A DNA stretch of 64,000 nucleotides from a virus. Every line of letters begins with the position of its first letter. Within the stretch, counting starts at the first letter, position 1. The translations under genes and the position numbers were made by a program. The notes beneath the pieces are model-generated. The model had not been told where the DNA came from, did no database searches, and was given only the letters and a program-made list of their open reading frames with translations. Where the stretch lies: IMG/VR virus record IMGVR_UViG_3300020473_000010, positions 224,698 to 288,697 of that record. One strand, given 5' to 3'. Below, in pieces: positions 29,964-62,313 of this stretch.

Positions 29964-30885
29964 TTCAGATTCACATCCGGAACTTTACCTAGATATAAAT
30001 GAAAGCTTAAAATATTTGAACGCTTTGAATTATGATGATTTTAATTATCCAGAAGAAACTACAATTTTCCATACATATTCCGAAATTAAAAATGTATATG
30101 AGCTTCAATGTATAAGATCGTTTTTAGCTACTCAGAATTTAGAAAAAACAAAATTGATTCTATGGTCTGATTATGATATTTCAAACAATTGTTTAATAGA
30201 TCCCTATAAAGATTATATTGATATGAGGATTTATAATCCTTTTGAGGTTGCACAAGATACAATATTAGAAAATAATCATGATATCCTTGCTGCAAAAGAT
30301 GAAAGACACTGGCTGCAAAGTGATCTTTTAAGATTGGTCGCTCTTCATAAATTTGGAGGAATATGGATTGATATGGACATTGTTCTCTTAAGAGATTTTA
30401 AACCAATCATGGATCAGGAATTTCTTTATTCAAATTTTGCCACAATAGACCACGAAAAAGAGGGGATGTGGGGAACAATAATGGGGCTTAAGCAAAAATC
30501 TAATTTATCTTTGCTTTTCTTAGAAGAGTTAATAAAAATCTCACCGGAGGAAAACACAAAATGTTGGGGACTGAATTTATTTAAAAAAGTATATCAGGAT
30601 AATAAATTTAACGTACTTCCGGCGATGTTTTTTAATCCTGAATATGGAGTTTTAGGATGGCCAAATGTAAGCGTTAAAAACAAAAACTACATATCGGGTA
30701 TTATAGATGGATGGTTTTTTGATAATGTTGTTATTAATTCCTTATATACCGGTACATTTTCTTGGCATTGGCATAACTCCACTGGAAGAACTAAGAAAAA
30801 ACCAAAAACGATACAAGAGGGATCAAAATTTTGGCAGATGGACCAAATTATAGAATCAAAACTAATAGAGAGAGGAATATTATGA
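29950..30885 (+). CDS. Glycosyltransferase, GT32-like (DXD sugar-binding)
   Basis: 311 residues from the ATG at 29950, giving a 14-base overlap with the preceding gene; an earlier ATG exists but lies deep in that gene. TIFHTYSEIKNVYELQCIRS opens the fold, and HWLQSDLLRLVALHKFGGIW then IDMDIVLLRDFKPIM is the Gly_transf_sug/Och1-type D-x-D motif. The C-terminal FSWHWHNSTGR segment resembles the histidine-rich acceptor motif of the family. Sugar unknown. Confidence 0.85.
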   Translation: MLNINSDSHPELYLDINESLKYLNALNYDDFNYPEETTIFHTYSEIKNVYELQCIRSFLATQNLEKTKLILWSDYDISNNCLIDPYKDYIDMRIYNPFEVAQDTILENNHDILAAKDERHWLQSDLLRLVALHKFGGIWIDMDIVLLRDFKPIMDQEFLYSNFATIDHEKEGMWGTIMGLKQKSNLSLLFLEELIKISPEENTKCWGLNLFKKVYQDNKFNVLPAMFFNPEYGVLGWPNVSVKNKNYISGIIDGWFFDNVVINSLYTGTFSWHWHNSTGRTKKKPKTIQEGSKFWQMDQIIESKLIERGIL

Positions 30886-39822: not shown

Positions 39823-41145
39823 CTATAAAATTGTTGAAGCTACCGAAGCTAAATCACTTCTTTGGCCCCTGCTTAAATTTACATGTGCAGACAAAGGAGA
39901 TTGTCTGAATTTATCTATAACTATGCTTAAACCTGAACTCTGTCTATCAATATATGGAGTATCAATTTGATCAATATCACCCAACAGAACGATTTTACTG
40001 CCCTGACCGATTCTTGTAATTATAGTTTTCAACTGATGAATGGTAGCATTTTGAGCTTCATCTACTATTACAAACGAATTGTTGAAGGTTCTTCCGCGGA
40101 TATATGGAATTGGAGCAATTTCAACATCACCTTTTTCTATCATGAGCTTAAAATAAGAAATATCTTTAAAAGCATGCCTGACATTGTCGAAAATCGGCAT
40201 GAGCCAGGGTGCCATTTTATCTTCCATTGATCCCGGAAGATATCCTAAATCTCTTCCAACCGGTTGCAGAGTTCTTGTAATAACCAGTCTTTCGAATCCA
40301 AAAGATAATTCTTCCGGAAGTTTACTGGATATACCTCCAGATTTTTCTTTCATTCCGGATAAACCTGCCATCAGCGCCAAAAACGTTTTTCCGCTTCCTG
40401 CTATTCCTGTCAGGGTAACTAGCGGAATTGATGGATCCAAAAGTGCCTCTAGTGCAAATGATTGCTCAGCATTCCTTGGTTCAACGGAAATCAGCCCTTC
40501 TAATTTTCTATTAAGCTTATGAGCAAATCCTTTTTTATGGATCCCTAAGAAGGATTTTTGATCGTTTTTACCAATTACAAACTGATTTTCATCTGTAATA
40601 TTTTCTATTTTTAAAAAACCATCATCATAAAATTGGTCAACCTCTGCAGGGTTTAATAGAATTTCACTCCACCCGCTTAAGGTCGATACATCTGAATCGA
40701 TATGGTCTTTGAAGTAATCTTGCGCTTTTACTCCAACAGCATCACATTTTACTCTTAAGTTTATATCTTTCGTAATTACGATAACTGTTTTTTCTTCATC
40801 TTCCATTTGGATGTATTTTGCACATGCAATAATATGGTTATCAGTAGAATTTGAATCTAGCCCTTCTGGCATATATGGCTTTAAAGGCTTTGTAACGAAT
40901 TTAAACCTTATATCATCCTCTGATATTCTCCACCCCGCTTCATCTTTGGGAGCTTCTCTCATTATATCTAGAAATCTATTAATATATCGAGCTGCTTCAC
41001 CAAGTAATCCTTGTTTTTCTTTGAATTTATCTAATTCTTCTAAAATGCACAGTGGAAGAACAATATCGTTACCAACGAATTGATGGATTGCTTCTTTATC
41101 GTAAAGCATTACGGAAGTGTCAACTACAAATATTTTTCTACTCAT
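39823..41145 (-). CDS. PhoH-like ATPase with N-terminal PIN domain
   Basis: 440 residues. PIN domain in residues 1-150 (FVVDTSVMLYDKEAI, then the acidic residues of NSTDNHIIACAKYI and VIVITKDINLRVK). PhoH ATPase from about 215: LVTLTGIAGSGKTFLALMAG (Walker A), LVITRTLQPVGRDLGYLPGS, and FVIVDEAQNATIHQLKTIIT (Walker B), then IVLLGDIDQIDTPY. The PIN-PhoH order is that of bacterial YlaK/PhoH2 proteins, RNA-unwinding ribonucleases; many phages have only the ATPase half. Ribosome-binding site AAAGGAAA is clear. Confidence 0.92.
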   Translation of the reverse strand: MSRKIFVVDTSVMLYDKEAIHQFVGNDIVLPLCILEELDKFKEKQGLLGEAARYINRFLDIMREAPKDEAGWRISEDDIRFKFVTKPLKPYMPEGLDSNSTDNHIIACAKYIQMEDEEKTVIVITKDINLRVKCDAVGVKAQDYFKDHIDSDVSTLSGWSEILLNPAEVDQFYDDGFLKIENITDENQFVIGKNDQKSFLGIHKKGFAHKLNRKLEGLISVEPRNAEQSFALEALLDPSIPLVTLTGIAGSGKTFLALMAGLSGMKEKSGGISSKLPEELSFGFERLVITRTLQPVGRDLGYLPGSMEDKMAPWLMPIFDNVRHAFKDISYFKLMIEKGDVEIAPIPYIRGRTFNNSFVIVDEAQNATIHQLKTIITRIGQGSKIVLLGDIDQIDTPYIDRQSSGLSIVIDKFRQSPLSAHVNLSRGQRSDLASVASTIL

Positions 41146-41174
41146 TCATATTTCCTTTATGTAAAATCTGTTTA

Positions 41175-41196
41175 TATGTGATAAAATTACCACATA
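41175..41196. promoter_or_regulatory. Operator-like inverted repeat between phoH and HTH gene
   Basis: Two 10-base half-sites, TATGTGATAA and TTACCACATA, separated by two bases, are inverted repeats with one mismatch. The site lies in the 62-base divergent gap between the PhoH start and the GTG of the sigma-like HTH gene, immediately before the latter's ribosome-binding site (AGGAGG). It could be a repressor-binding site or a small hairpin that hides the ribosome-binding site. Confidence 0.45.
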
Positions 41197-41207
41197 GGAG
41201 GTTCAAC

Positions 41208-41447
41208 GTGAACAAAAAAAACGAAACATGTTTTTCAAAACATAAAAATCTTAATAAATCCTGCCAAGACAAAAGTTGTCGACAATGGATGAATTGTGAA
41301 AATAAATTAAATTGTGCAATAATTGCTGCAAAAGATGGCCCGAGGACTTTGCAAGAAATTGGTGATTTACATGGATTGACTAGAATGCGCATATGCCAAA
41401 TTGAAAAAATTGCTCTAAAAAAAATAAAACTTTTGTATCAAGAATAA
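41208..41447 (+). CDS. Small sigma-70 region-4-like HTH protein
   Basis: 79 residues from the GTG at 41208, chosen because AGGAGG ends 6 bases before it; longer in-frame readings run back into the divergent PhoH gene. The C-terminal half (GPRTLQEIGDLHGLTRMRIC then QIEKIALKKIKLL) is a close match to the -35-binding helix-turn-helix of sigma-70 region 4 ('TLEEIG...GVTRERIRQIE..AL.KL'). The N-terminus has four Cys in CQDKSCRQWMNCENKLNC that may bind metal. A short free-standing region 4 could act as an anti-sigma-like co-activator or a repressor. Confidence 0.83.
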   Translation: MNKKNETCFSKHKNLNKSCQDKSCRQWMNCENKLNCAIIAAKDGPRTLQEIGDLHGLTRMRICQIEKIALKKIKLLYQE

Positions 41448-42720: not shown

Positions 42721-43920
42721 CTATTCAGGACATAATAAAAATCCGCCTATGGACTCGATTTTGTCCTTGAATGCTTTTGAGTGCTTTAAGGCTGTATTAA
42801 AATGGGAATAGGGGATTTTTCCAATGTTTGTATTTAAAATACCAGATCTTGTATATTCTTGAAATGTCTTAAGTGCGTTATCTAGGTTTTCGAAAATGAT
42901 AGGGTTTTCATTTTTTAAATTTATTTCTATGACCTCAGAGGATAATGAAGAAATTCTTTGTGATAATATTTCTTGTTCATTATGGTCTGTTGAAGATTCT
43001 AATCTAGAACACAACGATCTTAAATGATAATTATCTGTAATATTCGAAGTAATAATTGTTTCCCAATCATCAACAGAAAGATGGGGAGAGAAACCGTGTT
43101 TTTCTGAATCAACAACCGAAAGAGATAGTACATCTCCTAAATTCGAAGAGATAGGGAGAGCACTTGTTATTGAAGCTATATCAATAGAGGTATTAATATT
43201 TTCTACGCTGTTTCCATAAACTACCGGTAATACAGATAAAGATCCTTTAATCCAATTTGCAGCTAAGGTTGAAGAAACCTCTTCGGGGAATGATCTTGCA
43301 ATTAGTAATACATTCCATTTTAGTTCATGTGATTTCGTTAGTAACCTATCAAGTTCCCCTATTGACTGAGGAGCTCCTTCAATTATAATAATTTTGGCAT
43401 CATTTAAATAAAGCGATTTAGATCCAACCGACTTAAAGAAAACAGGATCTAGACCTATAGGAAATTTATTAGCGTTGATTACTTTAATGGTATTACGATT
43501 ATAATTTCCAATTTTTAAATTTATTCTTGCAGTTGAACTTAAAATAGATTTTAATGCTTGAAATATTTTAAGTTCTTCCCCATGCAAAAATTGCGATGAT
43601 AAATTTAATGATGCTTCAGATGTTGCTTTTGAATATGAGATCTTTTTTACATCGTTGTATAAAAATTTTACTAATAATGGCGAAGAACCTGGTGCTTCTT
43701 TTTCCATAGATTGTAGATGATCTAATAATATATTTCTTAATGCTAATTTAGAGCCGGAGCATTGTTGTTCAAAAACCCATCTCATAGTAGAAGGAGGGCG
43801 AATTTTATATATTTTATCTTCGTAATGAATCATTTTATGATGATCCCATATACCGTAACATGAAATCAATAGATTTTTTAACCATGCAGAATTTTGTGCT
43901 GGCTCATAAACTCTTTTCAT
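42721..43920 (-). CDS. Divergent GroEL-like chaperonin, ATPase motif lost
   Basis: 399 residues; GroEL has about 545. Residues 143-260 follow the GroEL apical domain: TIKVINANKFPIGLDPVFF matches the 'GMQFDRGYLSPYF' strand, AKIIIIEGAPQSIGELDRLL matches 'FILLADKKISNIREMLPVL', and VLLIARSFPEEVSSTLAANW matches 'LLIIAEDVEGEALATLVVN'. RSLCSRLESSTDHNEQEILS then QRISSLSSEVIEI matches the following intermediate-domain helix ('[21 protein letters not shown]'). The ATP-site GDGTTT is replaced by PGSSPL around residue 78, and most of the C-terminal equatorial domain is missing. ATP hydrolysis is unlikely. Alignment done by eye against remembered GroEL sequence. Confidence 0.72.
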   Translation of the reverse strand: MKRVYEPAQNSAWLKNLLISCYGIWDHHKMIHYEDKIYKIRPPSTMRWVFEQQCSGSKLALRNILLDHLQSMEKEAPGSSPLLVKFLYNDVKKISYSKATSEASLNLSSQFLHGEELKIFQALKSILSSTARINLKIGNYNRNTIKVINANKFPIGLDPVFFKSVGSKSLYLNDAKIIIIEGAPQSIGELDRLLTKSHELKWNVLLIARSFPEEVSSTLAANWIKGSLSVLPVVYGNSVENINTSIDIASITSALPISSNLGDVLSLSVVDSEKHGFSPHLSVDDWETIITSNITDNYHLRSLCSRLESSTDHNEQEILSQRISSLSSEVIEINLKNENPIIFENLDNALKTFQEYTRSGILNTNIGKIPYSHFNTALKHSKAFKDKIESIGGFLLCPE

Positions 43921-44165
43921 TAATGAAACCCGTTTGGTTTTGCTCCTAAAGTTGCTAAAAAAGCAGTAAATTTATCAGCTGATTGTTCTATAATTTCGCT
44001 TGTCTTCTTTATTTTTTCCTGCTCTTCAGCTCGATCTAGTGCAACAGCACAGAGTCGTGAAATTACACCTATAGAAAAAGCAATTACACTGAACCAAAAA
44101 GATTGACTATACATAAAAAGGCTAAATATTATTAAGATTTCTGGCATGCCTATGTTTATTTTCAC
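43920..44165 (-). CDS. Small membrane protein
   Basis: 81 residues. Two hydrophobic stretches near the N-terminus (MPEILIIFSLFMYSQSFWFS and VIAFSIGVISRLCAVAL) suggest a hairpin or one long membrane segment, then a charged helix (RAEEQEKIKKTSEIIEQ). Overlaps the PrkA stop by 4 bases and the GroEL-like start by 1 base. Family unknown. Confidence 0.7.
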   Translation of the reverse strand: MKINIGMPEILIIFSLFMYSQSFWFSVIAFSIGVISRLCAVALDRAEEQEKIKKTSEIIEQSADKFTAFLATLGAKPNGFH

Positions 44166-46087
44166 GAATCCCTCCAGAGATTATTTGATGCATATGTTAA
44201 AATTTCTTCTGCAGAATCTTCATTATATCCATATTCGTCGACTAGAGTCTGGACCATATCACTATATTTTTTTCTTTGGTCATCATCTCGAGATTTGCTT
44301 TTGGTGACGATTCTTGCCATATCTTTTACCGAATTGATTAAATAAGCTTCAATGGCTTCTTTTAAAGGTTCGTAACTTCTATAATCTACTGTTTCTCCAT
44401 GTCGCATTTTTGCAAACATATATGCAGTAACATCGGATCTAAATCCTTGGCGGGCGGATCCTGAAATTCCTATTACTTCTTCAATTGATTTCATAAATTT
44501 TTCATCGGCGTCGTATTCATCGCCAGTAATTGGATCTTTGATTTTGGATTTAGTTGTATATGCTTCAGCATTATCCAAATACGTATCAAATAAAGATTGA
44601 GCTTGCTCTTCATAGGCTGTAATAAACGCTTTTGCAATTTCGGTTTCTAAGATTCTAAGATATTCTTCTCTAACGGTTTTTTGAATAATTTCTAAACACT
44701 TTTCTCGGAAATCTTCATCTACGATTTGTTCTTTTACCATTTTTGTAAGAGATTTCATAACCCCTATAGGTGTAACACACGCTTTACTCTCATCAGTTAG
44801 TGCATGATCAATTGATTTCATGATAAATCTAGTAGATATTCCTTTCATACCTTCATTTCGTGATTCTTCTTTTAGGTCTTTAATATCAATCTTTTTGACT
44901 CTGCCTTTTTCAATAACTTCTTCTCCGTTGTAAATCTTCATTTTAGTTAAAAGATCACACTTGTTTGAGTGTTTTAATCTACTCATTACAGAAAACATTG
45001 AAGCAACTTTAATAGTATGGGGAGCAATATGCGCATTGAAATCAGATCTACTTAGGATTTTTTCGTAAATTTTAATTTCTTGATCAAGTTCTAAAATGTA
45101 AGGAACATTAATTTTTACAACTCGGTCTAATATAGCTTCGTTAGTATGCTCTGATTTAAATCTATTCCATTCTGATTCGTTACAGTGGGCAAGAATTACT
45201 CCGTCAAAAAAGACCATATCATGTTTTCCAGGGGCAGGTACCCTTTTTTCTTGAGTTGCTGTAATGATTGTATGCAAAAATTCAATTTCGTTTTTGAAGA
45301 CTTCGATTAATTCAACCAATCCTCGATTACCGACGTTGAAAGCACCGGTTAGATTTAATACCCGCGGGTCGTCTTCGGAATATTTATCAAGTTTCGAAAT
45401 ATCTTCTGAACCAATTAAAACTGAAACATCTTGACTATTTGCATCCATGGGTGGGACAGAAGCAATACCTCTACGTCCTCTCTGTGAAAACGAAGCCTGT
45501 ACCACAGGGAAGTTTTCATATTCACCGCTATGCTCATTTAAGAGTTTCCAGCGCGCAATGGGGCTTAAATCACCTTCAATTTTTACACCAAGTAGTTTTT
45601 CGAAATCTTCTCTTAGTGACCTTGGAAGGAGCTGTAAAGGCTCACCACGCTGAGGGTCTCCATCTAAGTGAAAATATTTTTCACCATCTAATGCTTTTTT
45701 AATGTGTTCTGTTAAAGCTGATTTCCCTGCTCCAACTGGGCCCATTAACAGTAGAACTTGTCTAGACTCTTCACCACGTAAAGCTGCTCCTTTAAGAAAC
45801 CTCATTAATTTCTCAATGACATGTTCCATTCCAAAAAATTCTTTGGAAAAATAATCATAAACTCTAATGTTTTCACCATTAAAGATTTTTCTTTTTCTGG
45901 GGTTTTCATCTGACATTATAGAAATACCTTTGGATTCAATGGCATCATATAATCGTTTATGAGCTAGCTTTGCAATCGATGGATTAGATTGAACTAGCTC
46001 TAAATAATCAAGAAAAGTTCCCTCAAATTTCTTTTCCTTTCTCTTGTTTCGTTGTTTTTTAATCAGGTCCAAAAATTTGTTTGACAT
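44162..46087 (-). CDS. prkA: PrkA/YeaG-type serine protein kinase
   Basis: 641 residues from the ATG at 46087 with ribosome-binding site TAGGAG; nearly identical in length to E. coli YeaG (644). FFGMEHVIEKLMRFLKGAAL, then LLLMGPVGAGKSALTEHIKK (Walker A), HLDGDPQRGEPLQLLP and the FDGVILAHCNESEWNRF segment are typical of PrkA. Its AAA+ domain drives proteolytic or kinase activity in stressed or starved bacteria. Directly follows SpoVR and DUF444 homologues, its usual chromosomal partners. Confidence 0.95.
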   Translation of the reverse strand: MSNKFLDLIKKQRNKRKEKKFEGTFLDYLELVQSNPSIAKLAHKRLYDAIESKGISIMSDENPRKRKIFNGENIRVYDYFSKEFFGMEHVIEKLMRFLKGAALRGEESRQVLLLMGPVGAGKSALTEHIKKALDGEKYFHLDGDPQRGEPLQLLPRSLREDFEKLLGVKIEGDLSPIARWKLLNEHSGEYENFPVVQASFSQRGRRGIASVPPMDANSQDVSVLIGSEDISKLDKYSEDDPRVLNLTGAFNVGNRGLVELIEVFKNEIEFLHTIITATQEKRVPAPGKHDMVFFDGVILAHCNESEWNRFKSEHTNEAILDRVVKINVPYILELDQEIKIYEKILSRSDFNAHIAPHTIKVASMFSVMSRLKHSNKCDLLTKMKIYNGEEVIEKGRVKKIDIKDLKEESRNEGMKGISTRFIMKSIDHALTDESKACVTPIGVMKSLTKMVKEQIVDEDFREKCLEIIQKTVREEYLRILETEIAKAFITAYEEQAQSLFDTYLDNAEAYTTKSKIKDPITGDEYDADEKFMKSIEEVIGISGSARQGFRSDVTAYMFAKMRHGETVDYRSYEPLKEAIEAYLINSVKDMARIVTKSKSRDDDQRKKYSDMVQTLVDEYGYNEDSAEEILTYASNNLWRDS

Positions 46088-55722: not shown

Positions 55723-57141
55723 TTATCTTTTTCCTGGTTTCTCTTTCATTTTGATATGAAAATCTCGAGAAGATTTTGAGAACTGAAGTTGGCCGGTTGG
55801 AACTATTACCCAACCTCTTTTAAGTTTGTTAAATCCGCCGGGATCCGGAGCATATCCATCTGTTAGTACCAAGTAGCCATCAAATCGACCTGAATGTTTA
55901 TTAGCATGATCTTGGACACATCTAAAATCAGTACCACCACAGCGGGTTCTTGTAAGGTTAACTTGGCGACCTTTCCGGAGAACACGCTCACTATTTTCAT
56001 CGACTTCAGTGTCAAAATTAAACAATGTAAACTCAACTCTTTTTGCCAAACCATCTAACTCAGAAGCAAGAAGTTCGAGGTCACTATCAGAAACTGACCC
56101 TGATTGGTCGAGATAAACAGCGATATTAGCTTTATAATCTCTAAAAGCACCTGGGTGAATACCCGGATATTTACGGTGCATTCTTCTAATCGAAGAAGCC
56201 CTGTCAGCGCGGCGGGTCATTCCGCAAAACTGTTTAAGAACAGATTGCCACGGGATATCTTTTGATATCATTTTTCTAAGGTTCTTTTGCATTGCGGCGC
56301 CAACAGAGCCCCAACTATTTGAACCATCACATTTCTTAACTGCTTCTTCAAGAGCCTGTTTAATCTGACCTTTAACCAATTCGCGCTGCTCATCTGAAAG
56401 TTGGTCCCAACCTTCATGGCTGTCCATTCCGTCATCACCGGAACCCGGAACAACTGTAACAGCATTGCCATCTTGATCAACAAGATTTCCGTTTTCGTCG
56501 ACTTTAACATCTCCATCGGCAAGGGCTTGTGCAAGAGATTTGCCGTTCATTTTTTCACTAGACTCTATTGCATTTTTTACATCATCGTCATTCATAAGTT
56601 CCGCAAAATACCATTCAGAATGCTTTTCTTTTGGAAATGATGCAATCTTTGCAGATACCATTGCATATCGTTGCGCAGCGTCATCACCCATTTGAGCAAT
56701 CTGTTCTGGTGTAAGAGGAGTAAATGCTTTACCTGGTATCAAACCACCTTCAGGCAATTCTTCTTCAGCAATCAGAGAATTAATCGCCAAATCAGTAGCA
56801 TAATTCCAAATAATGTGGGGGTCGCGTCGGCGGGTTGTAGTATGATCAAAAACCAAGTGATAACACTCATGCTTAAGTAAGCCTTTAACTTGAGCAGGGG
56901 TAAGACCAGCAAGAAACTTAGGGTTCCACCAAAAACGAACTTCACCATCTTTTGCCAAAACACCGGCTGTGGGGATTGCTTCTGTTTTGATTTTTTGAAT
57001 ACCTCGAAGAACTCGGGCGAAAAAAGGTTCATCCCACATTAATCTAATGAGGTGTGGACTTAAGTCAAAGGCGTTAGCTTCAGCTTCCGTGACTTCTCGG
57101 GCGGTCAGGGCGCTGTTGGCGGTTGTTGATTTGTTGGACAT
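55723..57141 (-). CDS. VWA-like protein with putative metallopeptidase N-terminus
   Basis: 472 residues. GLLKHECYHLVFDHTTTRRR near residue 90 contains the H-E-x-x-H zinc motif with a third His; it is the putative metallopeptidase part of the DUF2201/VWA-like family. The C-terminal VWA half has NIAVYLDQSGSVSDSDLELL (D-x-S-x-S) and RCGGTDFRCVQDH with its Thr. The middle is acidic (GSGDDGMDSHEGWDQLSDEQ). In bacteria such proteins pair with MoxR ATPases as chaperone-like complexes, and a MoxR gene lies two genes upstream. Confidence 0.87.
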   Translation of the reverse strand: MSNKSTTANSALTAREVTEAEANAFDLSPHLIRLMWDEPFFARVLRGIQKIKTEAIPTAGVLAKDGEVRFWWNPKFLAGLTPAQVKGLLKHECYHLVFDHTTTRRRDPHIIWNYATDLAINSLIAEEELPEGGLIPGKAFTPLTPEQIAQMGDDAAQRYAMVSAKIASFPKEKHSEWYFAELMNDDDVKNAIESSEKMNGKSLAQALADGDVKVDENGNLVDQDGNAVTVVPGSGDDGMDSHEGWDQLSDEQRELVKGQIKQALEEAVKKCDGSNSWGSVGAAMQKNLRKMISKDIPWQSVLKQFCGMTRRADRASSIRRMHRKYPGIHPGAFRDYKANIAVYLDQSGSVSDSDLELLASELDGLAKRVEFTLFNFDTEVDENSERVLRKGRQVNLTRTRCGGTDFRCVQDHANKHSGRFDGYLVLTDGYAPDPGGFNKLKRGWVIVPTGQLQFSKSSRDFHIKMKEKPGKR

Positions 57142-57173: not shown

Positions 57174-57213
57174 TTACACTAATAATTTAATTCAATTTTA
57201 ATGTTTCTACACA
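57174..57213 (-). promoter_or_regulatory. 40-nt conserved upstream motif (copy 1 of 3)
   Basis: On the minus strand TGTGTAG, 16 bases, TTAAATTA, 4 bases, TGTAA. It ends 32 bases before the VWA protein ATG. Identical spacing occurs at 59010-59049 and 59787-59826. Likely a promoter of a particular temporal class. Confidence 0.6.
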
Positions 57214-57214
57214 A

Positions 57215-57445
57215 TTATTCAGCACTTTTTTTATTTTCTTTTTCAACAGTTTCTAGTGTCCTTGGAGAGAAAGAATCAATCCAGCCATCAATATAAACTA
57301 AAAGTTTATCCCAATCTGAGTTTTGGGTTGAACGTGTAATTACATCAACAACTATTCCAATTGGTTTTTTTACTGATATTGGCGCCTTGTTTCGAAAGAC
57401 ATCTTTCAAGGTAACGAGATCCCCTTTCTCGTATCTATTGTCCAT
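57215..57445 (-). CDS. Small SH3-like protein
   Basis: 76 residues. NRYEKGDLVTLKDVFRNKAP, then IGIVVDVITRSTQN and DKLLVYIDGWIDSFSPRTLE: the G-D-L-V / G-I-V-x-D / W pattern of the small SH3-like family. Overlaps the next gene's stop by 11 bases. Role unknown. Confidence 0.68.
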   Translation of the reverse strand: MDNRYEKGDLVTLKDVFRNKAPISVKKPIGIVVDVITRSTQNSDWDKLLVYIDGWIDSFSPRTLETVEKENKKSAE

Positions 57446-57761
57446 GGACTCTCTCCAAGAGTTTAAATGAGCTTCCCACCAATACTACCTCTTTGCCTTC
57501 GACTAAAAACCAGTGGTGTTTTCTAGTACCGTCAATTAACCAATCATCATGTGTATGTCCTAAATACATCATCACAGGATGTTTATTATCAAGTTTTTGA
57601 TTTTTTGTTAAATATCCTTTCCATAATTTTATATGCGTTATATTGTCGGGGGTTTTTTCTAGTAGGGTTTTAAATCCATAATTTGTGTTTTTTACTTGGT
57701 TCCATATAGCACTACTAATAGGACGGTATAATTCACCAATTTTCATATGCTGTACATACAT
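57435..57761 (-). CDS. Hypothetical protein, possibly SH3-like
   Basis: 108 residues. Start chosen because GAGGTG lies 4 bases before this ATG. KIGELYRPISSAIWNQVKNT opens it; later PVMMYLGHTHDDWLIDGTRK then FLVEGKEVVLVGSSFKLLER give beta strands like the small SH3-like proteins, but longer. Function unknown. Confidence 0.62.
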   Translation of the reverse strand: MYVQHMKIGELYRPISSAIWNQVKNTNYGFKTLLEKTPDNITHIKLWKGYLTKNQKLDNKHPVMMYLGHTHDDWLIDGTRKHHWFLVEGKEVVLVGSSFKLLERVHGQ

Positions 57762-57801
57762 TTATCACCTCAATATAATTATACCTAAATTTCTAGAAAT
57801 G

Positions 57802-57839
57802 AATAAAGGGAAATTCAGAATTCTGAATTTCCCTTTATT
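57802..57839. terminator. 38-base perfect palindrome, probable terminator
   Basis: Two 19-base arms, AATAAAGGGAAATTCAGAA and its exact complement, centred on GAATTC. It sits between the MoxR gene end and the next leftward gene, where a long hairpin would stop or process transcripts. The flank on the minus strand (CATTTCTAG) is not a strong T-run, so a processing or binding site is the alternative. A shorter palindrome, ATTTCTAGAAAT, lies at 57789-57800. Confidence 0.55.
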
Positions 57840-57870
57840 ATTATATAAGATAATAGTGAAGTTAGTAGTT

Positions 57871-58977
57871 TTATTTTCTACCAAGTTCTCTTGAAGCTTG
57901 AACTGCTTTCACAACATCTTGGCCCATAAGTTTATGCATTTTTTGGATATTCTTGATATTGGCAGACTGAGTGATTGAGTTCCAGACTTGAACCATCATC
58001 TCTCCGGGAAGATTGAGAGCGAAGGCTGAGAGATTTTTACACTCTTTTTGGGTCCAAGAATTCTCTTTACAGTGGTGACCGATTTTATCGATGACGCCAT
58101 TCAAGGTAGAGTTTGGAAGATTAGTAATGTCTTTTTTACTGACTTTACCTTTGAGAACATCTTCGGCAGAAACTTGGCGTTCATATTCTTTAATGAACTG
58201 GCAGAAAGAGATAGCAGCTTCAGTGCCGACCATACCCAAAAGAAGGGCATACATGCCGTCTGGGTTTTCTGAACCAGCGACTGAAGATGGTGCCATATCC
58301 ATATGAAGAAGACATTCATTAACGCGGTGCCAAGAAGCTGGATTAGGACAAACTGTGCCGGGTTCGACAGATGAAGGGTCAACTCGCAGATGAGCTGGGT
58401 TTTGATTAATGAAATCAATCAATACTGAGTCGATATCATTATCACGGGCCCAAGAAATCCAATCTTCTGTAGATGGCTCAATGTCAGCAACCCAAAATCG
58501 ACGAAGAAGTGCTGGGTCCATTTCATTAACATCATACTCTGAACCAAAGTTGATGGCGGCGATTACGCGGGTTTCTGGGTGAAGACGATATGGAGTACCA
58601 TTTTTGTCATTACCAAGTTCTCGGTCGAGAACCAACTGGAAGAAAGACTGTTGAACGCCAGGAAGAGAGCGATTAAGCTCATCAAGCATGAGAACAACCG
58701 GCTCATTGCACGCCCGAACGAACCATGAAGGCATGCAAAAAGTCATAACACCGGTTTCTTTCATAGACTCAATGTCCGGATATCCGCCAACATCTCCTTC
58801 AGACATGGTTGAACCGCGAACATCGACGAATGGGATATTGTGATGGTCGGCGATTTGACGAGCAAGGTGAGATTTACCAACACCAGTTGGGCCGCGCATA
58901 AGAACTGCGATATGAGGGGGAAGGACAGGGGCCACTTTGTTGAAGGTGGCGATAGTGATAGGTGTCTTAGCTGACAT
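57871..58977 (-). CDS. MoxR-type AAA+ ATPase
   Basis: 368 residues. AVLMRGPTGVGKSHLARQIA is Walker A; VVLMLDELNRSLPGVQQSFF is Walker B; VIAAINFGSEYDVNEMDPAL then LRRFWVADIEP carries sensors I/II. The DLPFG-like MoxR spacing and length fit AAA_5/MoxR proteins, which remodel partner complexes with VWA proteins. The VWA partner is 730 bases downstream, and both have the same upstream 40-nt motif. Possible use: assembly or activation of a metal-containing or multi-subunit phage complex. Confidence 0.9.
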   Translation of the reverse strand: MSAKTPITIATFNKVAPVLPPHIAVLMRGPTGVGKSHLARQIADHHNIPFVDVRGSTMSEGDVGGYPDIESMKETGVMTFCMPSWFVRACNEPVVLMLDELNRSLPGVQQSFFQLVLDRELGNDKNGTPYRLHPETRVIAAINFGSEYDVNEMDPALLRRFWVADIEPSTEDWISWARDNDIDSVLIDFINQNPAHLRVDPSSVEPGTVCPNPASWHRVNECLLHMDMAPSSVAGSENPDGMYALLLGMVGTEAAISFCQFIKEYERQVSAEDVLKGKVSKKDITNLPNSTLNGVIDKIGHHCKENSWTQKECKNLSAFALNLPGEMMVQVWNSITQSANIKNIQKMHKLMGQDVVKAVQASRELGRK

Positions 58978-59009
58978 GGAAACTCCGTTTTTGGGTGATT
59001 GTTTTTTTC

Positions 59010-59049
59010 TTACATATGTAATTTAATCTATCTAGATGACTTCTACACA
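59010..59049 (-). promoter_or_regulatory. 40-nt conserved upstream motif (copy 2 of 3)
   Basis: Minus-strand TGTGTAG, 16 bases, TTAAATTA, 4 bases, TGTAA, ending 32 bases before the MoxR ATG, the same distance as at the VWA gene. Confidence 0.6.
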
Positions 59050-59076
59050 GGTTATTAGATTTTTTTTTAATAAAAT

Positions 59077-59298
59077 TCATAATTTAATTCCAAAATTTGT
59101 TTTTACTTTTTTAACCGGCGGGACTTGCAAATCAGAAAGATGGACTGAAATGATTTTCCCATCAGCCAAGATATCAGCAATCCCATAGGGATCATCATGG
59201 ATTTTAACGATTACTACACTTTCTGGGGTTTTTGGGGTTGAATTAATCTTTACCCAAATCGCCAGGTCTCCTTTTTTCCACGGGTATTTATTCGTCAT
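59077..59298 (-). CDS. Small SH3-like protein
   Basis: 73 residues. YPWKKGDLAIWVKINSTPKT, VVIVKIHDDPYGIADILADG and KIISVHLSDLQVP show the G-D-L-x / small beta-barrel pattern. The start overlaps the stop of the longer SH3-containing gene upstream by 11 bases. Role unknown. Confidence 0.66.
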   Translation of the reverse strand: MTNKYPWKKGDLAIWVKINSTPKTPESVVIVKIHDDPYGIADILADGKIISVHLSDLQVPPVKKVKTNFGIKL

Positions 59299-59758
59299 CG
59301 CAAGCCTCTACCCAAGAAGCATCCCAAGCTTGTAAACCCATGGGACCCATTACATGTAAAACCCTATTGGCTGCTGACCGCCACTTATCATCTTCTGGCT
59401 CTACAATAACCCCAATGGCTCCTGCGTAAAGACCCATATTTTCAAGGTAGACTGAATGTCGGCGAAAAGCTGAGTTTTTAATCTTTACCAATTCACCAGG
59501 CTCAAAAGACCATTCTATTCTCAGTTTTCCGGCTGAGATATTCTCGCGGCGAGTATTTCTTGCCAGTTTTCGTCGGGTGGTCTTGAAATTATCTCCAGCT
59601 TCTCGGCGTTTCTTTTTAAGTTCTGCAAGAGCTTCTGTATCGTATTCACGACTTGTTTCTGGTTTTTGAGGGCCTTCCCAATTTTCGCCGGCTTCTTCAG
59701 CTTTGCGGCGTGCAGCTCTTATTTGCTGGGCTGCAGATTTAAGTATCATTCTGTTCAT
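59288..59758 (-). CDS. Hypothetical protein with C-terminal SH3-like domain
   Basis: 156 residues. The N-terminal two thirds is highly basic and helical (QQIRAARRKAEEAG, LAELKKKRREAGDNFKTTRR), which may bind nucleic acid. The C-terminal third (SFEPGELVKIKNSAFRRHSV, GAIGVIVEPEDDKWRSAANR) is SH3-like, matching the tiny proteins nearby. First gene of its unit, preceded by the third copy of the 40-nt motif. Confidence 0.7.
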   Translation of the reverse strand: MNRMILKSAAQQIRAARRKAEEAGENWEGPQKPETSREYDTEALAELKKKRREAGDNFKTTRRKLARNTRRENISAGKLRIEWSFEPGELVKIKNSAFRRHSVYLENMGLYAGAIGVIVEPEDDKWRSAANRVLHVMGPMGLQAWDASWVEACDDE

Positions 59759-59786
59759 GGGAACAACTCCTTATTACTAATTAAGA

Positions 59787-59826
59787 TTACATACTTAATT
59801 TAACCTGTAATTTAAGAAGCTGCACA
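59787..59826 (-). promoter_or_regulatory. 40-nt conserved upstream motif (copy 3 of 3)
   Basis: Minus-strand TGTGCAG, 16 bases, TTAAATTA, 4 bases, TGTAA, ending 28 bases before the ATG of the gene at 59288-59758. A TATGTAAT reading of the last part looks like a -10 box. Confidence 0.6.
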
Positions 59827-61560: not shown

Positions 61561-62313
61561 CTAATATAAATCAATTTTGACACCAGACCATAATCTTAAA
61601 CTGACTTGCTGGAAATGTTTTTCCAGCAATCTCACAGGGATTTCAATTTTTTCTGGAGGGAGGTCTTCAGTGATTGTTTGGTTTCCGGTTTGCATAGGGC
61701 CTGAATAGCTTCCACCTGGGGCGGCTGTACAAGAGCCATTATTTTGATTACAATTTGTTGGAGATTGAGAAACTGAAACCATAGAATTTTGTTGCGATTG
61801 TGTAACTTTTTGTCTCTGAACATACGTTATTTGGTGTGTGTTAGTTACTGTACTTTTTCCTAAGATTTGTAATCTTTCATCATATAAATGAGAACTGATA
61901 ACAATTTGTTCATCAGTAATAGTAACGTTTGTTTCAAGTACCCAATGATTATTATCAAATGCGCATTTCATATAATCTAATTTATAATTGCAATTTTCCC
62001 ATGAATACTGTATTGTATCTTGGTTGTATATAAGAAATCTACCTTTGTGATTTAGGTTAAAAGGTTCATGACCACCATGGCCATTGTCTATTTTCATCAT
62101 ATGATAATGAGTTGCGGCATACCCAAAAACAATATCTTTTGGGATTGTATCGATGATTGCTTCTGAATGGTTAACTATATTGGGTGGGGCTACATATAAT
62201 TCAAAATCTTTGTTAGCTTCTACGATAATTGCAAGATCAGTTGGCATTGGTTCTTCGGCATACGTTGGGTTACATGCAAAAAAATTCATTATAAATAAAA
62301 AGTGGGAAAGCAT
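61561..62313 (-). CDS. Secreted protein of unknown function
   Basis: 250 residues from the ATG at 62313 with AAGGAG before it; longer in-frame starts fall in the Hsp20 terminator. The N-terminus (MLSHFLFIMNFFACNPTYAE) is a signal peptide with an A-x-A-like cleavage region or a lipobox-like N-F-F-A-C. The mature part is beta-rich (DLAIIVEANKDFELYVAPPN, YAATHYHMMKIDNGHGGHEP). A Ser/Asn-rich linker near residue 190 precedes EKIEIPVRLLEKHFQQVSLR. Exported, so probably acts in the host envelope. Confidence 0.72.
   Translation of the reverse strand: MLSHFLFIMNFFACNPTYAEEPMPTDLAIIVEANKDFELYVAPPNIVNHSEAIIDTIPKDIVFGYAATHYHMMKIDNGHGGHEPFNLNHKGRFLIYNQDTIQYSWENCNYKLDYMKCAFDNNHWVLETNVTITDEQIVISSHLYDERLQILGKSTVTNTHQITYVQRQKVTQSQQNSMVSVSQSPTNCNQNNGSCTAAPGGSYSGPMQTGNQTITEDLPPEKIEIPVRLLEKHFQQVSLRLWSGVKIDLY

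Follow-up and report, generated by a model that had tools for sequence, protein, structure and literature searches.

Do the three copies of a 40-nt motif on the minus strand of this phage DNA mark a promoter class that extends across the genome, or a site particular to the genes they precede? The stretch analysed (64 kb; hereafter, the window) is the last part of a 288,697-b virus record. Inspection confirmed the copies at exactly 57174-57213, 59010-59049 and 59787-59826, the ATG following 28, 32 and 32 nt after the 40-mer, as an earlier note had claimed; every other place in the window differs from the motif by at least five mismatches. The first copy lies upstream of a gene for a 472-aa metallopeptidase (DUF2201_N) fused to a VWA-like domain (55723..57141, minus strand; Pfam PF13203, 2.5e-18, and PF09967, 7e-9), the second upstream of a gene for a 368-aa MoxR-type AAA+ ATPase (57871..58977, minus strand; Pfam AAA_5, 2.2e-16, and tblastn matches to phage MoxR-like ATPases). 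The first gene behind the third copy encodes a 156-aa protein with no assigned function (59288..59758, minus strand) and is followed by a 73-aa ORF (59077-59298). The note had read the motif as either an early or middle promoter class or an activator site for the MoxR/VWA group.

Copies across the record

The earlier note had made further copies in the genome the test of its claim, and a motif scan of the whole record found them: besides three exact sites, it gave 14 that differ by no more than 3 mismatches. All of them lie on the minus strand, and the reversed-pattern control of the same search gave 0 matches. Site-by-site curation of looser scans yielded 21 minus-strand sites, at record positions (given for the low end of each 40-mer) 14400, 26524, 30145, 30415, 46778, 47457, 49927, 59786, 68219, 71237, 84968, 86554, 94884, 102618, 107129, 123390, 155073, 156044, 281871, 283707 and 284484, and one probable plus-strand site near record 100151. 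About 18 copies are thus present in the 288,697-b record beyond the three in the window, essentially on one strand; the genome-wide statements made here refer to pattern searches of the record and to the sequence stretches around the matches.

Each of the 21 sites is followed by a translation start after ~17-55 nt, usually with a Shine-Dalgarno sequence. Fifteen of them fall outside any ORF of at least 100 aa, as against 81% of the examined bases lying inside such ORFs, and several of the remaining overlaps arise where the downstream frame is extended at its 5' end. The submotif TTACA-N4-TAATTTAA alone (up to 3 mismatches) was not commoner than chance, implying that the -35-like box is also required for the signal. 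A search 17-19 nt before TTAMATTA, a wrong spacing that serves as a spacing control, returned no exact match.

Promoter anatomy and its conservation in related phages

Across the 21 sites, the elements follow one another in the order CTaAAAaCC, GTGYAR (-35 to -30), 17 bp and TA(a/c)ATT (-12 to -7), and by the same counts the -10 box is followed by ATATAT, a purine at the predicted +1 and TAA. In the promoter of the metallopeptidase-VWA gene (57174..57213, minus strand), the -35 box GTGTAG occupies 57212-57207, the -10 box TAAATT 57189-57184, and the predicted +1 is 57177. The corresponding positions for the MoxR ATPase gene (59010..59049, minus strand) are 59048-59043 (GTGTAG), 59025-59020 (TAAATT) and 59013, and for the 156-aa gene (59787..59826, minus strand) 59825-59820 (GTGCAG), 59802-59797 (TAAATT) and 59790. 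The A-rich upstream block, of the conserved form ~CTaAAAaCC and spanning ~-45 to -37, lies at 57214..57225 (minus strand) for the first copy, its A-tract falling at about -45/-39.

G, T, G and A of the -35 box are each present in 21/21 sites, as are T-12, A-11, A-9, T-8 and T-7 of the -10 box; because the sites were picked by their boxes, these counts are partly built in, while the upstream block (C in 17/21, T in 18/21 and A in 20/21 at three positions) and the downstream starts are independent. Position 37 of the 40-mer, corresponding to the purine of 'TGTAA' ~7 nt past the -10 box, is a purine in 19/21 sites, and taking it as the predicted +1 would place the boxes exactly at -35/-30 and -12/-7. 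The spacer measures 17 in all 21 sites. Searching the phage's own sequence for GTGYAR-N-TAHATT gave 24 matches at spacer 17 (with overlapping stretches counted twice) and 0-1 at the other spacers from 12 to 22.

Two boxes 16-18 bp apart and conserved T-12, A-11 and T-7 are features expected of sigma70-type promoters, and both were found here, the spacer peaking only at 17; a TTGACA-like -35 box is absent, with GTGYAR in its place across the 21 sites. A sigma70-type promoter class recognisable from sequence is a well-supported reading of the motif, and it is from this sequence pattern that we infer promoter activity. The sites and the strict spacing of the original description stand. Its left box is better given as GTGYAR, since the preceding T occurs in 14/21 sites only; the conserved upstream block was absent from it and has to be added, and its '-4-TGTAA' part coincides with the predicted transcription start.

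The right half of the motif, which reads TTACAT-N5-ATGTAA in several copies, might instead be an operator that overlaps a promoter and binds a repressor or activator dimer, and at 30415, 107129 and 156044, as in most copies of the close relative G034, it is indeed a perfect inverted repeat. However, in most of the phage's own sites the left arm is TTAAAT and the right arm has not changed to match, and the symmetry is lost in more distant relatives that keep the -35 and -10 boxes; we regard an operator as highly improbable. The conservation of RTAA at the start site exceeds what sigma70 needs, and counts against the split-sigma reading proposed below.

A position matrix built from the 21 sites detected the motif upstream of orthologous MoxR, VWA and neighbour genes in L066 and L067, and a diverged form upstream of orthologous genes in L063 and L064; shuffled and reversed controls of the relatives' 1.19 Mb of sequence contained 0 matches above 16 bits. 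The MoxR orthologs in L063, L064, L066, L067 and L133 have kept the upstream promoter, in part diverged, and the metallopeptidase-VWA ortholog in G034 (L156) has identical boxes around a different spacer. The 156-aa gene has an ortholog in L136. Over seven orthologous promoters, box identity amounts to 89%, compared with 44% for the 16-nt spacer.

In the close relative (L103/G034), ~20 promoter sites were found. Its contig (L103/G034:C5; NHDW01000006.1) is of phage origin, 305,838 b long and binned in the MAG 'Methylococcaceae bacterium TMED69'. In two cases it has a pair of identical promoter sequences separated by 280,180 b, a distance that suggests a genome of ~280 kb that is circular or terminally redundant.

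More distant marine relatives carry the form GTGYAR-N17-TATAAT, with 142 exact matches in 28 records and 0 for the reversed pattern. Independent spacer spectra in the relatives' loci showed a GTGYAR peak at 17 (and 18) and no spacer peak for TTGACA. Stretches taken from Atu_ph07, from SCTP-2 and from a 427-kb contig whose sigma is canonical and fused gave no GTGYAR peak, and GTGYAR-N17-TATAAT was not found in G001, G002, G011 and G015, in which the sigma-adjacent protein described below is present. A chance origin of the motif is ruled out by its count across the genome, by the controls with reversed pattern or shuffled sequence and by the spacer spectrum.

Two variations were observed in passing. 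In L063 (5419 and 5879, upstream of 7184), the -10/+1 part (TACATTATATATGTAA) is kept and a -35 TTAAGA replaces GTGTAG. The leaders behind the promoters in L138, L144, L146 and L152 (G023) have GGAGAAACCTTGCARGT in common, a possible 5' hairpin.

Genes behind the promoters

Directly downstream of the sites, or within the same gene run, lie genes for a SprT-like protein, an IMP dehydrogenase/GMP reductase, a RecA/KaiC-like ATPase, a poly(A) polymerase-type nucleotidyltransferase, UvdE, the sigma factor, DnaE (PHP domain), a phosphoesterase, MoxR and VWA. The class marks replication, repair, nucleotide-metabolism and takeover genes, not MoxR/VWA alone. An activator site for the MoxR/VWA group, one of the two roles first suggested, does not fit this distribution, in which the same element precedes the sigma factor, DnaE, RecA-like ATPase, UvdE, SprT and other genes; nor does it fit the position of the element at -35 with a 17-bp spacer, like the site of a sigma region-4-type reader.

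No promoter site was found from record 156 kb to 281 kb, a 125-kb late-type stretch whose part in the window encodes baseplate, glycosyltransferase and other late-type functions plus a helicase. This absence, together with the many genome-wide copies, the sigma70 geometry, the placement before translation starts and the conservation at orthologous genes, bears out the other suggested role, an early or middle promoter class, and the timing is probably the middle stage.

A different sequence, ATATTTAT, occurs shortly before ribosome-binding sites upstream of window positions 62313, 61515, 48816, 42654 and 9615 (minus strand), and is possibly a second, late promoter class in the window. With respect to DnaE, the gene of one relative (L019, 4884-9182) has two apparent intein-like insertions; this phage's DnaE has no insertion at the first of these places.

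T4 offers two promoter classes for comparison. Its late promoters consist of TATAAATA only, a sequence not found within 80 nt upstream of the window genes, whereas the present class has a strict -35 box and a 17-bp spacer and serves non-structural genes; the earlier statement that the motif does not match the T4 late motif was correct, given the different -10 box and the presence of a strict -35 box. The middle promoters of T4 have a MotA box ~12-14 bp upstream of the -10 box. They resemble the present class in that they form a second class, serve replication genes and have an upstream box other than TTGACA, but differ in that the box of this phage lies at -35, with a 17-bp spacer as opposed to the shorter MotA spacing. 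Sequence and spacing rule out membership in either the T4 late or the MotA class.

One could still suppose that a MotA-like phage activator on the left box recruits the host sigma70 holoenzyme to a plain -10 box, as T4-type phages do for middle genes, the more so as a conserved small predicted helix-turn-helix protein adjoins the sigma. Yet a spacer of exactly 17 is the distance expected of sigma region 4, longer than that of the MotA box, and this phage's -10 box differs from TATAAT in a way that suits a changed sigma better than host sigma70. We find such an activator very unlikely.

The phage sigma factor and candidate readers of the -35 box

One gene with sigma70 region 2 was found in the genome, at record 94111-94848, with a promoter site at 94884. 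The encoded sigma70-family factor comprises regions 1.2 to 4.1 (Pfam regions 1.2, 2 and 3; PF04542, 2e-20; PF04539, 1.8e-8), spans phrog_351 model positions 482-692 and ends ~20 aa past RFGI, soon after region 4.1. Region 4.2 was not found in this polypeptide, PF04545 matching at positions 1-18 only. As the phage gave no match to PF00623, the family of RNA polymerase beta', the host RNA polymerase is the likely enzyme, and the promoter copy carried by the sigma gene itself points to positive feedback.

Alternatively, the motif could represent strong early promoters read by the host housekeeping sigma, the odd -35 box suiting that host or being helped by the A-tract. The exact sigma70 geometry, TATAAT in the relatives and an A-tract where an UP element would lie are all compatible with this. 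However, GTGTAR is far from TTGACA and has nonetheless been kept, with drift, across divergent marine phages, while TTGACA-type promoters lack a spacer peak in the same loci. The class moreover coincides with a lineage-specific sigma, whose own promoter copy fits self-regulation. Reading by the host sigma seems unlikely to us.

The missing region has a good counterpart elsewhere. A 79-aa protein (41208..41447, plus strand; GTG start behind AGGAGG) has a Cys-rich N-terminus and a canonical region-4.2 helix-turn-helix, and is a detached sigma region 4.2. It matched PF04545 at profile positions 18-49 (E 6.6e-10), phrog_351 at model positions 691-726, RpoD/SigA region 4 in the PDB and, by hhalign, region 4 with a P of 1.4e-11. 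Given that the sigma covers phrog_351 positions 482-692, the two proteins together would form one sigma. The recognition helix reads LTRMRICQIE, compared with VTRERIRQIE in RpoD, and the two changed positions are among RpoD's -35 contacts. TRMRICQIE is invariant in 81 relatives of the protein, a biased figure because the peptide itself was among the search patterns. Loci around the 79-aa gene in other phages showed no GTGYAR peak; they may be late regions, where none is expected. The gene is divergent from a PhoH gene, and a minus-strand 84-aa ORF overlying it (41138-41392) is probably spurious.

The second candidate is a 91-aa protein with a predicted helix-turn-helix, encoded next to the sigma (record 93836-94111, L014; relatives in L022-L060). 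Nearly all related loci with this sigma type have a separate 83-108-aa protein directly behind it, and the 91-aa protein was found in 22/33 related records tested; the rest are mostly fragments. Its family has the conserved core Y..IA..MT..G.KMNHST.RN and matched no known family. Three of 34 members match Sigma70_r4_2 weakly, comparison of the family with region 4.2 gained over shuffled columns (3/100 shuffles being equally good), and fold searches with the protein returned nothing significant. As the detached region 4.2, this protein is a possibility only, the 79-aa protein found by the PF04545 scan being far better. Both proteins occur in at least G000, G001, G019 and G023; neither was found at a meaningful E-value by tblastn in 50,697 deposited phage records. 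With the clear region-4 homology of the one and the tight sigma linkage of the other, either is a candidate -35 reader.

We consider it likely, from the sequence evidence assembled here, that these are middle-class promoters read by the host RNA polymerase with a split phage sigma. The motif would be the core promoter of one phage-wide transcription class, bound by the host enzyme together with the phage sigma70-family factor. The sigma core (regions 1.2 to 4.1) would read the -10 box TAAATT/TACATT and direct starts at a purine ~7 nt downstream, and a region 4.2 on a separately encoded small protein would read the -35 box, its detachment perhaps leading to the non-canonical GTGTAG/GTGTAA instead of TTGACA. 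The copy at the sigma gene would provide the feedback, and the class would drive, probably at the middle stage, genes for replication, repair, nucleotide metabolism and takeover, MoxR/VWA among them. Promoter activity, the assignment of proteins to boxes and the timing are all predictions of this scheme; co-occurrence, geometry and self-regulation make a strong but indirect case for the link between sigma and motif. We also entertain, as a doubtful extension, a modular sigma in which a -10-reading, DNA-opening core might have its -35 specificity swapped between middle and late genes by the 79-aa and 91-aa proteins.

Parts of such a system have precedents. In T4 late transcription, the sigma-like gp55 lacks a -35 reader of its own and the small gp33 replaces region 4, and the present sigma is alike in lacking a -35 reader and being aided, in our scheme, by a small protein. 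Bacillus subtilis SigO-RsoA is listed as a two-subunit sigma (PMC10141391); likened by description only, it too is made of two separately encoded proteins, but it is cellular, whereas in the phage the genes for the two pieces lie at a great distance from each other, and a third small protein, also conserved, goes with them. As excerpted, Iyer 2021 (PMC7824862) reports RpoD-like and 'minimal' single-HTH sigmas as well as a MoxR-vWA-metallopeptidase pair in group 2.2 jumbo phages, and a 2026 review (PMC13282480), likewise in excerpt, holds that such jumbo-phage sigmas likely act at phage-specific promoters; the excerpts of PMC7824862 and PMC13282480 give no promoter class or -35 box. Going by the same excerpts of PMC7824862, the RNAP-less group 2 jumbo phages, whose sigma factors redirect the host RNA polymerase, resemble this phage in having no RNAP beta' match, an RpoD-like sigma and the MoxR-vWA-metallopeptidase pair, but the RpoD-like sigma of this phage stops before region 4.2, which is encoded elsewhere. 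We found no description of these promoters or of a split phage sigma in the open-access literature.

For many large phages that lack an RNA polymerase of their own, the promoters targeted by their sigma factors are not known. In the present case, the class is legible from DNA, has been checked over dozens of uncultured marine phages and is tied, indirectly, to one particular sigma whose parts are encoded separately. The outcome is a predicted regulon for a large marine phage of a lineage about which little is known, and a natural setting in which different proteins may recognise the -10 and -35 boxes.

A further feature recalls T4 in another respect. Unrelated proteins encoded at record 57190-58201 (L009), 43679-45264 (L007), 67498 (L010), 69958-71219 (L011) and 104008 (L016) start with a similar basic amphipathic stretch, often ending in L/I-x-E, and these N-terminal stretches resemble the T4 capsid-targeting sequences of packaged internal proteins.
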